DNA from: Archangium gephyra
GTDB taxonomy: Bacteria; Myxococcota; Myxococcia; Myxococcales; Myxococcaceae
Direction of reading: 5' to 3'
Assembly: GCF_001027285.1 (NCBI RefSeq)
Contig: NZ_CP011509.1
Location: 980,501-1,044,500, forward strand
DNA length: 64,000 bases
Shown: in pieces, positions 38,406 through 46,872 of the stretch
How positions within the stretch are numbered: position 1 is the stretch's first letter
Layout of the letters: each line of letters starts with the position of its first letter
Made by a program: the position numbers and the translations under genes
The notes under the pieces: generated by a model
Database searches by the model: none
The model's input: the letters and a program-made list of their open reading frames with translations, nothing else
What the model was told of the DNA's origin: nothing

Positions 38406-39086
38406 TCAGCGCCCTTCCGACGACAAGCGCTGCATCAACTCGTCGTACACCACGGGCTCCCGAGGCTGGGAGGAATCGGCCTCGGCGGACCGGGTGGGCT
38501 CGGCCGGCCGGGGCGTTCCTCCGCTCGAGTCCAGGCAGTACGCGCGCATCTCCGCGTTGCCTCTCGGGTCACTGGAGTAACCCGAGAGGGCACAGAGCTG
38601 CCCGCCGGGACAGTCGTGCCGGGTGCGGCACGCGACGTTCTCTCGCGGCACGCAGTGGTCCAGCACACAGGCCTCGTTCGTGGAACAGTCCGAGTCCGTT
38701 CCGCACGGCCCACACCGCCCCTCCGTACAGGAGGCGGCGAGGCCGCAGTGGTTGGCTTCTCCGCACATCGCCCGCACCGACAGGTCCACCTGCATGCCCT
38801 GCCACTCCTGGGGAGCCCTCGCATGGGGCATCCGGGGTGGCAGGGCTCCGGGCCCCTGCTCCTGCCGTGCGGTGGGCACCGGGGTGCCTCCGGCGTTGGC
38901 CTCGAGCACGGGCCGCGCGCCCGGGGACCGCGCCGCCACCTGGGGCGCGGAGGAGGGCTCCGGCGTGAGGGACGGAGTGGCTCCGGGCGAGTCCGGAGTG
39001 AAGGCCATCCGGAAGCCCATCACCGCGAGGGCTCCGAGCAGGACCGCTCCGAGCCGCAGGGAACGTTTGACGTAGGTGCGTGGCAT
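38406..39086 (-). CDS. Anchored cysteine-rich protein, related in design to 37257-38390
   Basis: A 226-residue protein: basic start, one membrane helix (about 12-28), Ser/Pro/Ala linker (to about 95), then a Cys-rich part (about 105-185) with CGPCGTDSDCSTNEACV and CRTRHDCPGGQLC units like those of the convergent neighbour. It ends in a polar tail. It is the third gene of a leftward unit (40930-38406), starting 15 bases after the stop of the HExxH metalloprotease gene. The shared design implies duplication of the Cys-rich surface protein. The function is unknown. Confidence 0.8.
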   Translation of the reverse strand: MPRTYVKRSLRLGAVLLGALAVMGFRMAFTPDSPGATPSLTPEPSSAPQVAARSPGARPVLEANAGGTPVPTARQEQGPGALPPRMPHARAPQEWQGMQVDLSVRAMCGEANHCGLAASCTEGRCGPCGTDSDCSTNEACVLDHCVPRENVACRTRHDCPGGQLCALSGYSSDPRGNAEMRAYCLDSSGGTPRPAEPTRSAEADSSQPREPVVYDELMQRLSSEGR

Positions 39087-39101: not shown

Positions 39102-40388
39102 TTACGGAGGGCTGCAGTTGCGGGAGTACGGGACGTAGACGCTCGTCCCGTTCTTGTTGAAGTAGTTCAGGCGGTACGAGTAGCTGCCGCGCCCGTCCCA
39201 GTTGTCGATGGCCGAGTAGTTGGAATTCCAGGGCTCGCTGATCTGCAGGCTCTCCGTGCCGTTGTCGTAGAGGGCCATCACGTTGAGCATCTTCCAGTAG
39301 TTGCCGGCTCCTTCCGCCACGCTCTCCTGGTCGTCCACGGAGTCATAGACGTCCCAGAGGAAGCGCATCGCGGTGAGCGGCCAGCGGTTCTCGCCCGAGG
39401 CACACGCGGAGCCGCTGCTGGTCTCCAGGTTGAACTGGCCCGGCGCGCACGGCGCCGCCGAGGCGAGGCAGCTGTGGGGCGCGGGCGCATTGGGGTAGTA
39501 CAGAGCGCTGTCCGCCAGGAAGGTCGCGAGCGCCTCCTCGAAGGCGGCACTCCCGTGCTCGGCGGTGTTGAGGGTCCACCACTGGCACTTATCGGGGAAG
39601 TTGCTGGTGCTCGGGTAGCAGTAGCCGTTGCCGCCCGTGCCCGAGTAGGGATGGGCCAGATAGGACGCGATGTGCCCCATCTCGTGCATCACGCGGCCCT
39701 GCGGCGCGTACGCGGCGCCCACGTCCAGCTGCACCCGCTTGGAGTAGCCGTTGGCGCAGCTCGTGGGGCACTCGCCGTTGAAGCCCGGCATGTCGTTGGC
39801 GAACCCGCGAATCTCCACGTTCGTGAAGTTCGACTGCATCACGCCGAAGTAGTTGAGGCCCTCGCGCCACATCAGCTCCGCGCCGTCGTAGGTATTGGCC
39901 CACTCGTCCGCGTAGCTGGAGCTTCCCCAGGCCGCCGTCCCGATGTTCTGCGGGCTGGTGGACGTGGTCCCGTTCAGGAGCGTGAAGTAGCCGGTGGGGT
40001 ACCAGCGGTAGGTGCCGTTGGAGTAGCGGATGTAGAAACGGCCATCCTTGTGGTCCGGCACCCAGTACACGTACACGCCCGTGGGCGGCGTGGTGCCCGC
40101 GTAGTACCAGGAGATGGTGTAGTCGCCGTTGAGGTCCGTCGCGCCCTGCCCGATGACGGCATTGGCCTGGTCGCTCCAGACATAGACGCGCGCGTTGCGC
40201 ACCGGCTGGTACGTCTGGAATTGCGCCTGCGTGTACACCGCGCCGGTACAGTCGCGCGTGTTCGGGCAGTAGTTGCCCTGGTTCTGCCAGAACTGCATGC
40301 GTCCGCGCACATAGCCGGAGGCCGCCTGCGTGGAGCTGGCACCGAGCATGGTGCCCAGGACCACGAGACCGAGGAGCAGGTTCTTCAT
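39102..40388 (-). CDS. Exported HExxH metalloprotease-like protein
   Basis: A 428-residue protein with a signal peptide (ending TQA). The zinc motif is H235-E-M-G-H239, and E286/E287 in AAFEEALATF is the likely third ligand, giving a gluzincin-type site. The N-terminal 150 residues look like a beta-rich carbohydrate- or protein-binding module (VRNARVYVWSD, TDLNGDYTISWYYAG). Several cysteine pairs fit an extracellular protein. The start overlaps the stop of the upstream gene (40385-40930) as ATGA. Its place in a unit divergent from the sigma/CHAT genes suggests co-regulation. The substrate is unknown. Confidence 0.82.
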   Translation of the reverse strand: MKNLLLGLVVLGTMLGASSTQAASGYVRGRMQFWQNQGNYCPNTRDCTGAVYTQAQFQTYQPVRNARVYVWSDQANAVIGQGATDLNGDYTISWYYAGTTPPTGVYVYWVPDHKDGRFYIRYSNGTYRWYPTGYFTLLNGTTSTSPQNIGTAAWGSSSYADEWANTYDGAELMWREGLNYFGVMQSNFTNVEIRGFANDMPGFNGECPTSCANGYSKRVQLDVGAAYAPQGRVMHEMGHIASYLAHPYSGTGGNGYCYPSTSNFPDKCQWWTLNTAEHGSAAFEEALATFLADSALYYPNAPAPHSCLASAAPCAPGQFNLETSSGSACASGENRWPLTAMRFLWDVYDSVDDQESVAEGAGNYWKMLNVMALYDNGTESLQISEPWNSNYSAIDNWDGRGSYSYRLNYFNKNGTSVYVPYSRNCSPP

Positions 40389-40930
40389 CGCATCACCCCC
40401 TGGTTGGACCGCGAGCGCATGTGCCAGTCATCCCCCTCGAGCAGCTGAACCTCGCCGCCCCGGACCTCGACGAACACCTGCACCAGCTCCGACACCTGGG
40501 TGCGGCCGCCCGACGCCGCCACCTGCACGGTGCCGCGGTAGAAGCCATCCGCCAGGCCCGCGGGAATGAGGAGCGGCTCCGCCGTGCCCTGCTCCCCCGC
40601 CATCAGCCTCACCGCCGGCGAGTAGCGCGTGTCCTGGACGATGTTGCCCACGTCATCCGTCAGCCGGAACGCATACATCGCACGTACGGGCTCGCCGAGG
40701 CGGCTCGTCAGCGTGGGACGCAGCTCCAGCGAGTGGCCGTCGCGTCCGACGCGGTAGGCCTCGGGCGAGAGCTCCAGCTTCAGCCCGCTCTCCATACCGC
40801 CGATGCACTGGATGTTCGGCTGGGTCGAGGGCGCGGCCACCGGTGCGGCGGGTGCGGGTTGTTGGAGGAGGGCGGAACCGCCCAGCCCCCCCAGGGCAAA
40901 GCAGAGCGCCCAGGAAGTGAATTCCTTCAT
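40385..40930 (-). CDS. Exported protein of unknown function, first gene of the leftward arm
   Basis: A 181-residue protein with a short hydrophobic start (LCFALGGLGGSALL), an Ala/Pro spacer and a beta-rich body (LKLELSPEAYRVGRDGHSLELRP, then FYRGTVQVAASGGRTQVSELVQVFVEVRGGEV). It looks like one or two Ig-like sandwiches. The ATG at 40930 has GGAGATACGC before it; the frame stays open far upstream, but that part lies under the sigma gene. Its stop overlaps the metalloprotease start (ATGA), so the two are cotranslated. Expression from the shared region 40931-41152 is likely. Confidence 0.78.
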   Translation of the reverse strand: MKEFTSWALCFALGGLGGSALLQQPAPAAPVAAPSTQPNIQCIGGMESGLKLELSPEAYRVGRDGHSLELRPTLTSRLGEPVRAMYAFRLTDDVGNIVQDTRYSPAVRLMAGEQGTAEPLLIPAGLADGFYRGTVQVAASGGRTQVSELVQVFVEVRGGEVQLLEGDDWHMRSRSNQGVMR

Positions 40931-40987: not shown

Positions 40988-41152
40988 GTGAAGGATGACG
41001 ACGAGACCCCGCGCATCTTCCCGGCGCATTTTCCGGGGCATTTTTTTTCGTGGGCCCGGGGAAGATCTCCACCCCCCCGTCGTCACCTCATGGTGATGCC
41101 AGGGAGCCCCGCGTTGATCCATCCTCACGAGCCGTGCCAGGGTACGGGACGG

Positions 41153-41680
41153 ATGTTCGTCACCCACCTCAGCACTGAGCGTTCCTTCCGGGAGCTGGCG
41201 CGGACGCTGGATCCGATCCTCTACAAGGTCGCCCTGCGCGCCTGCAGGGATCCGGCGGTCGCTCGCGACCTGGTGCAGGACACGTTCGAGCGCGGGCTGA
41301 GGAGTCTTCCGCAGCTGCCCCCGGACACGCAGATGCGGGCCTGGCTCACCACCGTGCTGCACAACCGCATCGTGGACCACTGCCGGGTCCAGGCCCGGCG
41401 GCAGTCCGAGCCGCTCGAGGCCGCGGAGGAGATCGCCCAGCCCCCCGTGGATGACGAGGCCTGGGCCCATATCACCCCCGAGGACCTGGAGCGGGCGCTG
41501 GCCAGGCTTCCCGAGAAGTTCCAGAGCGTGTGCCAGCTCTTCCTCATCGAGCGACTCTCCTATGACGCCATCGCCCGCAGACTGGGTATTCCCAAGAACA
41601 CCGTGGGGACCCGGCTCACCCGTGGCCGCGAGAAGCTCCGCGCCCTGCTGCTCGGCGGCACCGAGGAGGAGGTGGAATGA
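41153..41680 (+). CDS. ECF-type RNA polymerase sigma factor partnered with a CHAT anti-sigma protein
   Basis: A 175-residue ECF sigma factor: sigma-2 (about 10-80, ARDLVQDTFERGLRSL, then MRAWLTTVLHNRIVDHCR) and sigma-4 (about 110-165, QSVCQLFLIERLSYDAIARR followed by LGIPKNTVGTRLTRGREKLR). I chose the ATG at 41153 by family length; an in-frame ATG at 41090 would add 21 residues, and neither has a strong ribosome site. Its stop overlaps the start of the 958-residue ZAS-TPR-CHAT protein (ATGA), the classic layout of a sigma/anti-sigma pair. Targets probably include the divergent exported genes. Confidence 0.9.
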   Translation: MFVTHLSTERSFRELARTLDPILYKVALRACRDPAVARDLVQDTFERGLRSLPQLPPDTQMRAWLTTVLHNRIVDHCRVQARRQSEPLEAAEEIAQPPVDDEAWAHITPEDLERALARLPEKFQSVCQLFLIERLSYDAIARRLGIPKNTVGTRLTRGREKLRALLLGGTEEEVE

Positions 41681-44553
41681 GCTCCCCCTGTGAGAACCTC
41701 GAGCGTTTCTCGGATGGAGAGATGCCGGATGCGGAAGCGGCCTCCTTCCAGGTCCATCTGGCCTCGTGCTCCCGGTGTCAGGCCCGGATGCTGGACCTGA
41801 TGCAGCTGGACGTGCTGGGACAGGAGGTGGCCGCGCGCTCGAAGTCCCGCCGGTGGGTCCCCCTGGCCCTGGCCGCCTCGCTGCTCGCCGCCGTGCTGGG
41901 CGCGGCGGTGGCTTCACGCATGGGCTCGCCGTCGCCCGCTCCGCTCACGGTGGCGGTGCATCGCCCCATCGAGGCGCGTCTCACCCATCCCGGTGCCCGC
42001 GAGCACCGCCGCTATGGCGTGGAGCGGGCAGGGGAGGGCGCCTCCGGAGAGGCCGTGCCCGAGGACGTGCTCGCCCGGTTGATCCACGACAAGGACTTCC
42101 ACGGCGTGGCCACGGTCTACCTGCTCATGGGGGCTCCCAAGCTGGCGGCGGATGCGCTGGCCAAGGCTCCGCCGTCACCGGACGTGGACTGTGACCGCGC
42201 CGTGGTGGCGCTGCTCCAGGGCGCTCCCAACGAGGCGCTCCGGCTGCTGGAGGGTGTGCTGTCCTCGCAACCCCAGCATGCGCAGGCGCTCTGGAACCGG
42301 GCGCTCGTCCTGCGGGAGCTGCAACTGCCTCGCGCCGCGGCGGAGGCCTTCTCCCGGGTGGCCACGCTCGCCGAGTCCGGTTGGGCCTCGGAAGCCGAGG
42401 AGCGTGCCCGGGAGCTGCGGCGCGAATCGGACGGGCTGCGCCAGGTGTGGCGGGACCTGGATGCGCGCTCCCTGGAGATGGTGAAGGGCGGGCCCGCGCT
42501 CTCGGAGGAGGACGCCCGGCGCAACCCCGGCTTCTCCCGGCTGCGTCTGTATGACGCGGCCCGCGCCGCTGTGTCCGCGGACGAGGTGCGCAGGCTCCTG
42601 CCCCTCGCCCGGAGCCTGGATCTCGAGTACCGCACGAGCGTCCTGGAGCGCTACGTGGGCCAGCTCGCCCAGGCCGACTTCCAGCGCCGTGCCCCGGCCG
42701 CACGGGACTATCGCGAGCTCGTCCTCGGCAATGCCGGCGCGGACACCGAGGGACTGCTCGCGCGGCTGCGAGCCTCCGGCCAGGAGGACATCGAGCTGGG
42801 CGCGATGCTGCTCACCGGGAGCACCAGCCGCCACCTCGAGCGCTACCGCGCGCTGGTGGCCCGGGCCGCGGAGCCCTGGTTCGACATCCTGGCGCTGCAC
42901 GAGCAGGCGAAGCAGATGCTCCTGCGCGACGAGTACCCCGAGGCGGAGTCGGTGCTGCTCACCGCGCTCTCCCGGTGCGAGCAGGAGCGGCTCGACTACC
43001 GCTGCGCCCGGCTCGAGCTGGAGCTGGCGGGGCTCTACAACACCGTGCACCGCATCGAGGAGGCCCTGCTCCAGGCGCGGCGCGGACGCGAGCGCGTGCG
43101 GCGCGTCCATGAGTGGGAGCTGGAGCAGATCTTCCTCCAGCGGCTGGCGCAGATCGCCCGGTTCCAGGATGACTTCCCACTCGCGCGCGCCTACCTCGAG
43201 GAGGTGCTGCTCGAGAGCGAGGGCGGCAAGGACGCCTGCACCACCGCCAACTACGTGCACGAGACGCTCGCCAACATGGCGCTCATCCGCGTGGACCGGG
43301 AGACGGGGCTGCGCGAGTTGAAGCAGGCGCCCACCTGTGGCGCGCCTCCGACACTGTTCCGCGCCGCCATCCTCGCGGACCTCGTCCGTCTGGGCGCGCC
43401 GGACGTCGAGCCCGAGTTCTGGAGTGCCCTGTCCACGCTCCGGGCCGACCGGGACACCAGCGAGGGGACGCGCTCCTTCCTCGACTATCTGGAGGGACGG
43501 GTCGTCATCGAGCGGGACGCCGCGCGTGGCCGGCAGCTGCTCCAGGAAGCCATCTCCCGGGCGGAGCGGCTGCCCGAGAGTCATATCCAGGCGCGCAAGA
43601 CACGTGTGTCCAGCCTGGCCGTGCTCGCGCTCGACGCGCTCCGGAGGCAGGAGCCCGCGGGCGCGCTGGACGCCATCTCGCGGGTGATGGAGGTGCCCAC
43701 TCCCGAGCGCTGTGCGCTGGGCTTCGTGATGGATGACGAGCGGCTGGTCGTGGTGGCGCGGGACGCGCAGGGGCGCACCCTGGGCCACCTCCAGGAGCTC
43801 GTTCCCTCGGGCCCGCTGGAGACCGGGAAGCTCGTCCCCGAGAACCTGAAGGCGCAGCTCTCCGCGTGTCCGCGCGTGGAGGTGCTCGCGCCCGCGCCCA
43901 TCCAGGGACGGCCAGCGCTGCTGCCGCCGGAGATGGCCTGGAGCTACCGGCTCAAGTCCGGACAGGCTCCCAAGGCCCCGGGCCTGCCGGAGCGCCGCCT
44001 CGTCGTGCATGACGTCCAGGCTCCGGCGTCGTTGAACCTCCCGCTGCTCGGGCGCTGGACTCCTGGACGCAGCACGTCCGGGCTCGTCGAGCTCCAGGGC
44101 TCCGAGGCCACGCCCTCGCGCGTGCTGGACGCGATGGGGGAGGCCACCGTCATCGAGCTGCACGTCCACGGGCTGGTGGACTGGGCCGAGGCCTCCGCCC
44201 TGGTGCTCTCTCCGGACAGGGAGGGCCGCTTCACCTTGAAGGCGCGGGAGGTCCGTCAGCGCCCGCTCAAGGGGGCGCCGCTCGTCATCCTCGGCGCCTG
44301 CGACGCCGCGCGCACGCTGCCCTGGAAGCACCAGGCCTGGAGCCTGCCGGCCGCCTTCCTGGAGGCGGGGGCCCACGCGGTGCTCGCCTCGACGTCGCGG
44401 GTGCAGGACGCGGATGCGAATGCGTTCTTCGATGCGGTCCGTGCTCGTATCCAGGCCGGTGCCGCGCCCGCCGCCGCCCTGCGGGACGTCCGCCTCGAGT
44501 GGCTTTCCCGCGAGCCCCGGAGCTGGGTGCGGGACGTGATGTTGTTCGAGTAG
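41677..44553 (+). CDS. Anti-sigma/TPR/CHAT-protease fusion protein with one membrane helix
   Basis: A 958-residue protein in four parts. Residues 1-50 hold a zinc anti-sigma (ZAS, zf-HC2-like) motif, H27-x3-C31-x2-C34. Residues 60-80 are a single membrane helix. From about 120 to 640 are TPR-like helical repeats (ALRLLEGVLSSQPQHAQALW). The C-terminal ~280 residues are a CHAT domain with an intact His831 (HVHG) and Cys875 (LGACDAA) dyad. CHAT proteases are caspase-like; TPR-CHAT proteins act as regulated proteases. I infer that the ZAS part holds the upstream sigma factor and the protease part controls its release or acts on another substrate. The start overlaps the sigma stop. Confidence 0.88.
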   Translation: MSSPCENLERFSDGEMPDAEAASFQVHLASCSRCQARMLDLMQLDVLGQEVAARSKSRRWVPLALAASLLAAVLGAAVASRMGSPSPAPLTVAVHRPIEARLTHPGAREHRRYGVERAGEGASGEAVPEDVLARLIHDKDFHGVATVYLLMGAPKLAADALAKAPPSPDVDCDRAVVALLQGAPNEALRLLEGVLSSQPQHAQALWNRALVLRELQLPRAAAEAFSRVATLAESGWASEAEERARELRRESDGLRQVWRDLDARSLEMVKGGPALSEEDARRNPGFSRLRLYDAARAAVSADEVRRLLPLARSLDLEYRTSVLERYVGQLAQADFQRRAPAARDYRELVLGNAGADTEGLLARLRASGQEDIELGAMLLTGSTSRHLERYRALVARAAEPWFDILALHEQAKQMLLRDEYPEAESVLLTALSRCEQERLDYRCARLELELAGLYNTVHRIEEALLQARRGRERVRRVHEWELEQIFLQRLAQIARFQDDFPLARAYLEEVLLESEGGKDACTTANYVHETLANMALIRVDRETGLRELKQAPTCGAPPTLFRAAILADLVRLGAPDVEPEFWSALSTLRADRDTSEGTRSFLDYLEGRVVIERDAARGRQLLQEAISRAERLPESHIQARKTRVSSLAVLALDALRRQEPAGALDAISRVMEVPTPERCALGFVMDDERLVVVARDAQGRTLGHLQELVPSGPLETGKLVPENLKAQLSACPRVEVLAPAPIQGRPALLPPEMAWSYRLKSGQAPKAPGLPERRLVVHDVQAPASLNLPLLGRWTPGRSTSGLVELQGSEATPSRVLDAMGEATVIELHVHGLVDWAEASALVLSPDREGRFTLKAREVRQRPLKGAPLVILGACDAARTLPWKHQAWSLPAAFLEAGAHAVLASTSRVQDADANAFFDAVRARIQAGAAPAAALRDVRLEWLSREPRSWVRDVMLFE

Positions 44554-44573
44554 TGCCTCACAGAGGAGCCTCC

Positions 44574-44858
44574 ATGAAAGCGCTGTCCCGGGTCACCCCG
44601 TTGCTCGTTGTCCTGATGACTGAGGGTCTCGCCCTCGCCGCCGAGAACAAAGGCAGCGCCAAGGGCGGCGCCACCGCACCGCGGCCTGGTGCTGGCTCGG
44701 TCGAGGACATGAGCAAGCCGTCCACCGGCTGTCTCACCTGTCTGACCCAGGACACCATTCCCAAGCAGACGGGCCAGGGCACGGGCGGCGAGGATCCCGA
44801 CAAGAAGAAGAAGCCGAACGTGAAGGTCCCGAACGCCGCGCCGGTGAAGACGAAGTAG
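44574..44858 (+). CDS. Small exported protein after the CHAT gene
   Basis: A 94-residue protein with AGAGGAG before the ATG, 20 bases after the CHAT gene stop. A signal peptide (ending LALA) is followed by a low-complexity Gly/Ala/Lys body, one CLTC pair (about residues 53-56) and a Lys-rich tail (DKKKKPNVKVPNA). It is unlike any family I recognise. Being the last gene of the sigma/CHAT unit, it could be a substrate, signal or ligand of the CHAT protein, but nothing in its sequence proves that. Confidence 0.7.
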   Translation: MKALSRVTPLLVVLMTEGLALAAENKGSAKGGATAPRPGAGSVEDMSKPSTGCLTCLTQDTIPKQTGQGTGGEDPDKKKKPNVKVPNAAPVKTK

Positions 44859-44885: not shown

Positions 44886-46823
44886 TCAGTACCGGGACAG
44901 GTAGGCGCGGGAGCCACCGTCTGCCGCGCCGTAGTTCCAGTAGATCTGGTCCGCCGCCCCGCTTCCGTCGAGGTCGGCGAAGAAGTACTGCGTGTTGGCG
45001 GACTGGCTATAGCCCGGGTTGTTCATCAGGGGGCCTCCCGAGAAGCCCGTGGCCGAGCCGAGGTACACCTGGATGCGGCCCTCGCGGTAGTCCGGGCGCC
45101 AGAAGAGCTTGTCGGCGTGGCCGTCGCCGTTGACGTCGGCGAAGTAGAGCCGCGTCTCGGGATTGCCGCTGGAGCCGCCCATGTGCGAGGTGAGGAAGGT
45201 GAACGTGCCGTTGCCGTTCGAGGCGTAGACGCGCGTGCGCCCCGAGTCCGCCGCCACGTCCCAGACAAGCTTGTCCGCCCGGCCGTCCCCGGTGACGTCC
45301 GCGAAGTAGAAGTGCGCGTCGGCGTTCTGGCTGCTCCCCGCGTCGGTGTTCGTGTTGGACCACGCGAAGGTCCCGTCACAGTTGGACAGGTAGACGCGCG
45401 CCCGGCCCGAGTCGAAGGTCGGGTTCCAGTAGATCTTGTCCGCGCACTTGTCCCCGGTGAGGTCCGCGAAATAGAAGGTGGTCGCGGCAGACTCGCTCCC
45501 GCCGTTCTCGTTCGAGTTCGTCCAGCGGAACGTCCCGTCACAGTTCGACAGGTAGACGCGCGTGTGGCCCGTGTCGAAGGTCGGGTTCCAGTAGATCTTG
45601 TCCGCGCACGCGTCCCCGTTCACATCCGCGAAGTAGAAGGCCGTCCCCGTGGACGCGCTCCCGCCGTTGTCGTGCACGATCGCCGGCCCGAAGGTCCCGT
45701 TGCAGTTGCCGCGGAAGGCCTGCGTCGCTCCGCCCAGCAGCGTGGGGTTCCACGAGAGCTTGTCCGCGCAGCCATCCCCCGTCACGTCGGCGAAGTAGAG
45801 CCGCGTGCTCGCCGAGGTCCCGTTGCCCTGCGCATCCGTCGTCGAGCCCGCGTTGAACACCGCCGGACGGATGGTGGCCATCACCGCGAAGTGGTCCGAG
45901 GGCGAGATGCCGTCGTACTCGCTCGTGTCGATGAGCTGGTCCGACGTGGTCATGTCCCCGCCACTCACGAGGATGTAGTCGAGCCGGTTGTAGTTGGTGC
46001 TCGGGCTCTTCCAGGAGCTGTTGAACGTCGCCGTGTCCGCCGTCGTGGCTCCGGTGTGACGCGCCGAGCGGTACAGCGCCGGCGAGCCCCCCTCGAGCAT
46101 CGCGATGGAGTCGTCGTTGGTCGAGGCCGGGTTCTGCGGGTCGGAGTTGAAGTCTCCGAACACGATGACGGAGCGGCCCAGGGACTTCTGGGTGATGACT
46201 CCGCGAATCAGCTCGGCGTTCTTCTCGCGCGCCAGGCCACAGTTCACGCCGTGCGCCGGGTGCGAGTTGACCAGGAAGTACTGGCGGCCCGACAGCTTGT
46301 CATCGAGCTTGATCCACGCCGCCGTCCGCCCGGAGGCGTTCGGGTAGCACGCGTCGGACGTGGCGTACGGATTGGTGATGCTGAAGTAGCCCTGCACGTC
46401 CGTGCCCGCCGCCAGCCCGAACCGGCTCCGGCGATAGAAGATCATCTTCGGGCTTCCGTTCGACGGCTTGTAGTAGTCGTAGTTCGCCTGGAAGGCGTTG
46501 ATGAGATCGTTCTGGATCGCCGCCGCCGAGGCCTCCTGCACACCAAAGATGTCCGGGTTCCTCGCGGAGATGAGCTTGATGACGTCCGGGCTGCGCTGCG
46601 TCCAGCTGTAGAGGCCCGTGTCCTCCGCGTTCACCTGACGCACGTTGTACGTCATCACCGTGAACGGCCGGTGGTCCACCGTCACCGCGGACTCGAGCCC
46701 GGCGAGCTCCTGGGGCTCGGCGTCTTCCAGCGTCGCGGGTCCACAGCTGGACCACAGCGTGCTCAGGGCCACCAGGGCCGAACCCTGGAGATGACTGCGA
46801 AGCCAGCGCGTCTCGATCTTCAT
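44886..46823 (-). CDS. Secreted endonuclease/exonuclease/phosphatase-domain protein with VCBS/FG-GAP-like repeats
   Basis: A 645-residue lipoprotein (Cys at LWSSC). Residues about 55-325 are an EEP domain with FTVMTYNVRQV, GVQEAS, GDFNSDP, RLDYILVSGG and SPSDHFAV. Residues about 345-645 are six copies of a ~48-residue repeat containing YFADVTGDGCADK-x-x-W, the metal-loop (DxTGDGxxDK) type seen in FG-GAP/VCBS propellers. It therefore joins a phosphodiesterase or nuclease with a calcium-dependent binding propeller. AGGAG decides the ATG at 46823. The only other EEP protein here (6314-8026) has different added modules. Confidence 0.9.
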   Translation of the reverse strand: MKIETRWLRSHLQGSALVALSTLWSSCGPATLEDAEPQELAGLESAVTVDHRPFTVMTYNVRQVNAEDTGLYSWTQRSPDVIKLISARNPDIFGVQEASAAAIQNDLINAFQANYDYYKPSNGSPKMIFYRRSRFGLAAGTDVQGYFSITNPYATSDACYPNASGRTAAWIKLDDKLSGRQYFLVNSHPAHGVNCGLAREKNAELIRGVITQKSLGRSVIVFGDFNSDPQNPASTNDDSIAMLEGGSPALYRSARHTGATTADTATFNSSWKSPSTNYNRLDYILVSGGDMTTSDQLIDTSEYDGISPSDHFAVMATIRPAVFNAGSTTDAQGNGTSASTRLYFADVTGDGCADKLSWNPTLLGGATQAFRGNCNGTFGPAIVHDNGGSASTGTAFYFADVNGDACADKIYWNPTFDTGHTRVYLSNCDGTFRWTNSNENGGSESAATTFYFADLTGDKCADKIYWNPTFDSGRARVYLSNCDGTFAWSNTNTDAGSSQNADAHFYFADVTGDGRADKLVWDVAADSGRTRVYASNGNGTFTFLTSHMGGSSGNPETRLYFADVNGDGHADKLFWRPDYREGRIQVYLGSATGFSGGPLMNNPGYSQSANTQYFFADLDGSGAADQIYWNYGAADGGSRAYLSRY

Positions 46824-46872
46824 CTCTGCTCCTCTTGGGGGGAGGCGCATCCTCGAAGAGCGAGACGGTGAT

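Follow-up and report, generated by a model that had tools for sequence, protein, structure and literature searches.

A DdvA-type transmembrane anti-sigma factor with a TPR-CHAT region in Archangium gephyra, and its predicted local regulon

In the soil bacterium Archangium gephyra a gene for an extracytoplasmic function (ECF) sigma factor overlaps that of a protein of 958 residues in which a zinc anti-sigma (ZAS) motif, one transmembrane (TM) helix, TPR-like helices and a CHAT domain are combined, which raises the question of how such a protein might hold and release its sigma factor, and whether the pair is a new kind of system. The genes lie in the 64,000-nucleotide stretch analysed here (contig NZ_CP011509.1, positions 980,501 to 1,044,500; the window). 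An earlier note made from the sequence alone had proposed that sensor, protease and anti-sigma factor are here one membrane protein. The best explanation as a whole, which we put at a probability of about 0.68, is a DdvA-type pair with CHAT-gated release of the sigma factor and a local regulon of secreted proteins. The central features are as follows.

41153..41680, + strand: ECF sigma factor, 175 aa (Sigma70_r2, Sigma70_r4_2, TIGR02937)
41677..44553, + strand: DdvA-type ZAS-TM-TPR-CHAT anti-sigma factor, 958 aa (Pfam, PDB 8rot match, AlphaFold2)
41689..41778, + strand: ZAS core, residues 5-34 with C5, H27, C31 and C34 (zf-HC2, 8rlz match)
41857..41913, + strand: single membrane helix, residues 61-79, expected with the N terminus in and the C terminus out (hydropathy, lysine/arginine charge bias)
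42061..43686, + strand: TPR/helical-repeat region, residues about 129-670 (AlphaFold2 helices, TPR models, 8rot alignment)
43696..44550, + strand: CHAT region, residues about 674-958 (Pfam CHAT, fold)
44167..44169, + strand: codon of His831 of the dyad, kept in all complete members
44299..44301, + strand: codon of Cys875 of the dyad, kept in all complete members

The sigma factor matches Sigma70_r2 (49.8 bits) and Sigma70_r4_2 (43.6 bits) above the Pfam cut-offs as well as TIGR02937 (E 2.1e-28), and direct reading of the sequence shows that its stop codon and the start of the 958-residue protein share ATGA at 41677-41680, as the earlier note had described. The rest of the anatomy given there also stands. 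The H27-x3-C31-x2-C34 motif is present and residues 12-35 match zf-HC2 (27.1 bits; Pfam cut-off 22.2); the single helix, placed at 60-80 by the note, is found by hydropathy at 61-79 (mean 2.27; best later window 1.31); TPR-like helices are seen in the AlphaFold2 model and the 8rot alignment, with TPR models matching below their Pfam cut-offs; and the C-terminal CHAT domain (residues 804-946, 62.1 bits; Pfam cut-off 24) has His831 and Cys875 where they were claimed.

A search of solved structures returned one full-length relative, 8rot/8rw5 (residues 2-958 against 3-991, 464.7 bits), in which the His and Cys of the dyad align to equivalent places, and residues 2-52 of the ZAS part match 8rlz, 'Antisigma factor DdvA'. 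The title of 8rot, released in 2024, is 'Cryo-EM structure of the transmembrane anti-sigma factor DdvA'. An AlphaFold2 model of the window protein, built from 60 family members (predicted local distance difference test score, pLDDT, 91.4; predicted template modelling score 0.87), finds 8rot first in Foldseek (2.2e-48) and aligns with 8rot_A over 862 residues at Z 43.7, with a root-mean-square deviation (rmsd) of 3.4 and 36% identity in the structural alignment. The next folds are Csx29 (7y83_D; Z 23.2, rmsd 9.1, 445 aligned), which the TPR-CHAT part had been thought to resemble, and human separase (19.5). Because of the full-length match and the fold of the model there is very little doubt that the window protein is a DdvA-type membrane anti-sigma factor.

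The match to DdvA of Myxococcus xanthus led us to drop the idea of a wholly new kind of system. What survives of the one-protein proposal is its anatomy, with sensor, protease and anti-sigma parts in one membrane protein; its novelty does not, since M. xanthus DdvA has the same arrangement. DdvA, a relative of the same design, reportedly controls phage defence as the switch of a CBASS/CRISPR island, its zinc ligand set is said to be CHCC, and the Bernal-Bernal 2024 abstract reportedly describes transmembrane dimers with a periplasmic TPR-CHAT part. In the literature combining the CHAT domain or TPR-CHAT with ECF anti-sigma themes the main match was PMC10028731, and the names DdvA and DdvS are absent from PMC8156234; we make no claim that the family survey given here is unpublished.

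How general is the arrangement? The conservation set consists of complete, non-identical members, 49 of them fused like the window protein and 41 unfused, having TM, TPR and CHAT parts and no ZAS motif (one of these is a fragment). All 49 fused members are linked to a sigma gene, so that the same fusion beside ECF sigma genes, which the earlier note had suggested looking for, does occur in other genomes. The sigma stop codon lies 30 nt or less from the script-chosen start in each of them, with a 4-nt overlap in 22 and a 1-nt overlap in 14; and in one family list a sigma open reading frame (ORF) precedes every row with the ZAS motif and no row without it. The arrangement is not due to chance, because the upstream sigma gene tracks the ZAS motif in this way and is present in 49/49. 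H27, C31 and C34 are kept in every fused member. C5, which the earlier list of ligands lacked, is C in 39/49, H in 9/49 and a gap in one, and is likely to be the fourth zinc ligand. H831 and C875 are kept in 49/49 fused and 40/40 complete unfused members, and the dyad is among 33 invariant columns of 60 diverse rows.

Charge and cysteines bear on the side of the membrane on which each part lies. Lysine and arginine are more numerous before than after the helix in 46 of the 49 fused members and equal in 3. Of 90 rows, 89 retain C679/C731 and one has a gap there, and C434/C443 read CC in 86 rows, SS in 2, SC in 1 and a gap in 1; such paired cysteines could form disulfides outside the cytoplasm. 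Because of the paired cysteines and the charge bias of the fused members, an N-in topology with the bulk of TPR-CHAT in the periplasm fits, and the CHAT part would then be expected across the membrane from a cytoplasmic ZAS part, as had been anticipated. The unfused members speak less clearly for this placement, with more lysine and arginine before the helix in 22/41, equal numbers in 4 and more after it in 15.

Given this kinship, is the window protein simply DdvA, serving as the phage-defence switch of A. gephyra? The architecture and fold are the same, but this is very improbable. The likely DdvA orthologue, in locus L053 (family loci carry L numbers throughout), scores 1338.3 bits against DdvA, nearly three times the 464.7 bits of the window protein, and lies next to genes for a SMODS cyclase and for SAVED-CHAT. 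A FastTree tree of 89 rows (fragment L060 left out) has a starred clade of 13 fused members that holds L053 and excludes the window protein, whose row is a long branch joined to the long branch of L079, a pairing flagged by the program as possibly false. Of the DdvA-clade loci, 10/13 have a C25-like protease and 8/13 have SAVED-CHAT, and each is present in 0/37 of the other fused loci, where flank lengths vary and the window was taken at its whole 64 kb; CRISPR genes were not part of this search. None of the six CBASS-type neighbour families of the DdvA clade has a match among the window ORFs, and PADLOC models were run on two window proteins. The lower score and the position outside the DdvA clade thus make the window protein a distant paralogue of DdvA, by sequence comparison, and not its orthologue. 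Its nearest relative found is 49% identical (genome G099, stretch L184).

The DdvA-clade neighbourhoods, viewed with PADLOC models and sequence search, contain CBASS cyclase genes in L049 and L053, an E1-E2 family match beside the sigma/anti-sigma pair in L049, L053 and L074, JAB in L074, and SAVED-CHAT in L053 and L074. A protein family represented by L070:10517-12019, with relatives in L049, L071 and L074, is matched in 10/13 of these loci, and its L074 member matches Peptidase_C25 (28.6 bits; cut-off 23). The proteases of such loci may form a chain, like the SAVED-CHAT cascade mentioned in PMC11229360.

If phage defence is not the target, what might the window's sigma factor transcribe? The 222-bp gap between the sigma gene and a divergent operon carries the pattern GGAAGA-N12-CGTCGTC once on each strand.

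41060..41084, + strand: ECF-type promoter of the sigma/anti-sigma operon, exact match, 68 nt to the sigma ATG
40997..41021, - strand: second, divergent promoter, exact match, 66 nt to the EXP1 ATG at 40930
40385..40930, - strand: EXP1, exported, 181 aa, signal-like start, first gene of the divergent operon and predicted target
39102..40388, - strand: exported 428-aa protein with an HEMGH (HEXXH) motif, ATGA overlap with EXP1, predicted target
38406..39086, - strand: Cys-rich, exported-looking protein, 226 aa, 15 nt further on, probably in the operon by its spacing

The plus-strand site lies within a well-aligned block shared with L184, which also carries a pair, one per strand (spacers of 12 and 11), before its sigma gene and an unrelated divergent gene. 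Any match arose in 0 (window) and 1 (L184) of 20000 shuffled gaps, and matches on both strands in 0; the pattern was defined from the plus-strand site and its relative, so that only the minus-strand copies are independent of the definition. The window and L184 share the switch, but not the divergent cargo or the operon's third gene. The 428-aa HEMGH protein has no family match over cut-off and no PDB relative. The whole genome of 12.49 Mb contains 8 exact matches with a spacer of N11-13 and 20 of the reversed pattern, and the six beyond the window pair all lie inside ORFs. Two results count against the proposed regulon: across the genome a looser pattern shows no excess (94 matches; reversed control 188), and at two mismatches the window holds 5 matches against 4.32 expected. 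Because the exact divergent pair recurs at the locus of the 49%-identical relative, it is nevertheless probable that the sigma factor drives its own operon and the divergent operon of EXP1 and the HEXXH protein as a local regulon.

The operon has a third gene, noted earlier as encoding a small exported Lys-rich protein, and this description is borne out.

44574..44858, + strand: small exported Lys-rich protein, 94 aa, with a Shine-Dalgarno-like site and a signal-peptide-like start

Its ATG is 20 nt after the anti-sigma stop codon, and the protein has no Pfam or NCBIfam family and no relative among the window ORFs, the ORFs of L046-L080, or L184. In 46 of the 49 fused loci the next gene is short and variable in sequence, its product looking like a lipoprotein, an exported protein, a cytosolic protein or a tiny or disordered one; the count drops L062, L135 and L157, with doubtful gene calls, and keeps L078, marked doubtful. 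This might suggest that CHAT is a protease acting on another periplasmic protein, such as the third-gene product, with the sigma factor responding to that event or merely controlling the operon. The often exported look of these products favours the idea, as does a PP-x(0,7)-PG motif in 24 of the 46 third genes (shuffled mean 5.1, highest 10 in 200 rounds; 8/136 control ORFs). However, this motif count is made over rows that are not independent of each other, two variants of the motif, stricter or looser, are found in 14 and 18 of the 46 (shuffled means 3.4 and 9.7), the window's 94-aa protein does not have the motif, and the counterpart looks cytosolic in ten DdvA-clade loci (eight of group CYT, L053 and L154). 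We consider a separate substrate of this kind improbable. Profile comparison joins several groups of third genes (for example at 98.9% and 97.3%), though not those of the window or other tiny proteins, and the predicted fold of the L063 product (pLDDT 61.7) has no structural match above Z 5.9. Beyond the third gene, 44886-46850 on the minus strand encodes an endonuclease/exonuclease/phosphatase domain and FG-GAP repeats in one protein (Pfam).

The DdvA-type family is large in the Myxococcaceae. One scan of a genome collection with one conserved peptide pattern gave 91 relatives, of which 80 were kept, their titles all being Myxococcaceae or Archangiaceae. A search of 59 related genomes matched 17, and a search of 145 genomes of the class matched 66, of which a single one lies outside the family of the window. 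In four genomes reached by way of loci the number of matches, with halves counted, was 4, 8, 8 and 5. The window's own genome has 23 CHAT matches, 22 over cut-off, and only one full-length DdvA-type match.

Another organization is seen in split loci, where the work of the fused protein is shared by a ZAS-TM-TPR protein without CHAT and a TM-TPR-CHAT protein without ZAS. We found 25 non-identical shorter proteins that match the N-terminal part, each after a sigma gene, and 23 of these halves extend past the ZAS part, whereas the matches of the other two (L057 and L066) cover no more than profile positions 1-61 and 1-64. In L047 each of the two halves matches DdvA. A CHAT gene lies in the same locus for 21/25 halves, a value biased upward as most loci were fetched for their CHAT match; for halves matched directly the count is 6/8 (L047, L048, L050, L054, L056 and L058, not L055 or L057), with two N-terminal matches at contig ends (L042, L043) left out. 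The FastTree tree needs 4 changes between fused and unfused forms, at least 3 of them forced by starred branches; it was midpoint-rooted for drawing and so gives the changes and not their direction. Since both halves of split pairs keep the juxtamembrane and first TPR regions, the simplest reading is that they would form a heterodimer with CHAT acting in trans, and the split loci thus suggest protease action in trans.

This does not extend evenly to all unfused CHAT proteins, and several counts weaken any general rule that the protease serves an anti-sigma factor. A sigma gene and a ZAS-TM-TPR half occur within the fetched stretch for 21 of 57 unfused TM-TPR-CHAT genes and are missing from it for the other 36, many of which are truncated by the end of a contig. 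Of the 29 genes whose flanks extend 5 kb or more in each direction, 13 stand beside a sigma gene and half; cupin-like genes lie near 14 of the remaining 16, and the last 2 have neither kind of neighbour. Some unfused CHAT proteins therefore show no visible link to a sigma factor, and CHAT parts may also work outside sigma control.

Among side observations on these loci, Cupin_8/JmjC-like genes (1 to 3 per locus) lie near 41/57 unfused TPR-CHAT genes and 0/50 fused ones; loci with them include L047, L048, L051, L052, L056 and L058. An ECF-like AAG-N15-CGTCTT is found upstream of 16 sigma/half genes, with a one-base-longer form before that of L152. CAAGGA-N13..14-CGTC lies 33-65 nt upstream of the aligned sigma start in L047, L105, L110, L111, L115, L116, L122, L128 and L152, and L105, L110 and L128 also have a CAAGGATTC-type element ahead of their unfused CHAT gene, as L047 does in weaker form; these related elements are a few hundred nt before the CHAT gene.

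Where could a CHAT protease cut? The split pairs suggest one candidate residue.

42025..42027, + strand: codon of Arg117, candidate cleavage point in linker 111-130 (conservation contrast, low pLDDT)

The linker that leads from the juxtamembrane block to the first TPR helix has a pLDDT of 70 at residues 111-120 and 63 at 121-130. The position of R117 is Arg in 37/49 fused members, 22/23 halves, 1/18 CHAT partners in split loci (15 have Gly) and 14/22 other unfused proteins; that of R96 is Arg in 48/49, 23/23, 3/18 and 21/22, respectively. Within split pairs, then, the sigma-holding half keeps R96 and R117 and the protease partner has mostly lost both. Clan-CD proteases often cut after Arg. Several observations count against this contrast as a mark of cleavage. 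Most split pairs form one clade, so that the loss of R96 and R117 represents few events; R117 is not Arg in 12/49 fused members and is kept in 14 of the 22 other unfused ones; and E99, R101 and R111 are at least as well conserved in the unfused proteins (40/40 each), where release of a sigma factor would not call for a cut. An Arg or Lys is present somewhere in linker 113-127 in 48/49 fused members, 23/23 halves and 38/40 unfused proteins, and R117 is only a candidate because such residues are common in all groups. DdvA-clade members L049, L053, L070 and L071 read MG at the R117 position, and DdvA aligns Met there. Csx30 is cut between residues 427 and 429, and deletion of M427 prevents the cut, in the account of that protein in PMC10028731. 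A cut at residue 117 itself is doubtful.

The scheme that we infer, from topology in A. gephyra and dimerisation to cleavage and its site, the order of events, the signal and the regulon, would run as follows. The cytoplasmic zinc domain would hold the ECF sigma factor; one helix would cross the membrane, and the periplasmic TPR-CHAT part, probably a dimer, would sense a signal. On that signal CHAT would cut the neighbouring subunit near the membrane (site 1, for which the Arg117 linker is a candidate); RseP-type site-2 cleavage and then cytoplasmic proteolysis would free the sigma factor, which would transcribe its own operon and the divergent exported-protein operon, one product of which has HEXXH. 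Periplasmic cleavage followed by a site-2 protease is the best reading, and two RseP-type proteins are over cut-off in the genome of the window. For DdvA, autoproteolysis in trans by CHAT before RseP was reportedly raised in 2024 as a possibility, the cleavage being only proposed. CHAT proteolysis as the trigger stands at even odds in our view. The authors of the DdvA work are said to call its His-Cys active site incomplete, which weakens the case for proteolysis.

The strongest competitor is that CHAT is a non-proteolytic sensor or scaffold, and that a change of shape or a separate periplasmic protease brings about an RseA-type release. A large part of the juxtamembrane block shows the same conservation in proteins that would not have to be cut, a point for this view and against CHAT-gated cleavage, and the RseP-type proteases of the genome suit it equally; RseA itself depends on a separate site-1 protease in the description given in PMC10028731. 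A scaffold would not, however, account readily for a dyad that is intact in every complete fused and unfused member and stands among the invariant columns, and we regard the non-proteolytic view as rather unlikely, though less so than a separate substrate.

Returning to CHAT-gated release, a plausible if tentative joint reading, against which the odds lean somewhat, is that DdvA belongs, as a single branch, to a large family of caspase-type periplasmic signalling proteins in the Myxococcaceae, often with several paralogues per genome, in which each sigma factor would drive itself and, where looked at, local cargo, and CHAT, as the repeated separation into a ZAS half and a TM-TPR-CHAT protein would show, would cut the sigma-holding partner in trans at a linker position that is Arg in most (Arg117 in the window) and Met in the DdvA-clade members examined. 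To a system solved structurally in 2024 for one protein only, the present analysis adds the split forms, a residue at which cleavage might occur and a predicted regulon of compact size. The split loci provide natural protease/anti-sigma pairs and a candidate residue for direct tests of trans-cleavage, and the window copy ties the DdvA-type switch to a predicted two-promoter regulon of secreted proteins, not to phage defence.

Four known systems provide a context for this locus. DdvA/DdvS of M. xanthus (PDB 8rot, 8rw5, 8rlz) shares the ZAS domain, the single membrane helix, the TPR-CHAT region, the full-length match, the fold and a partner ECF sigma factor, whereas the window protein lies outside the DdvA clade at 36% identity, has none of the six DdvA-clade neighbour families in its window and has a divergent secreted-protein operon as predicted target. 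The type III-E craspase Csx29/Csx30/CASP-sigma has the same TPR-CHAT fold, at a Z of 23.2 far below that of DdvA, and likewise ties a CHAT protease to an ECF sigma inhibitor; as set out in PMC10028731, however, Csx29 and Cas7-11 together act on Csx30, an inhibitor that is a protein of its own, whereas here anti-sigma factor and CHAT are in one membrane protein. In CalpL/CalpT/CalpS of type III CRISPR a protease cuts the anti-sigma factor and frees an ECF sigma factor, as outlined in PMC11417357, but the protease is of Lon type with a SAVED sensor and three proteins are involved. RseA/DegS/RseP has a membrane anti-sigma factor with a site-1 cut followed by RseP, in the outline given in PMC10028731, as we propose for the window protein; there the site-1 protease is separate, whereas here the CHAT domain is within the same protein.

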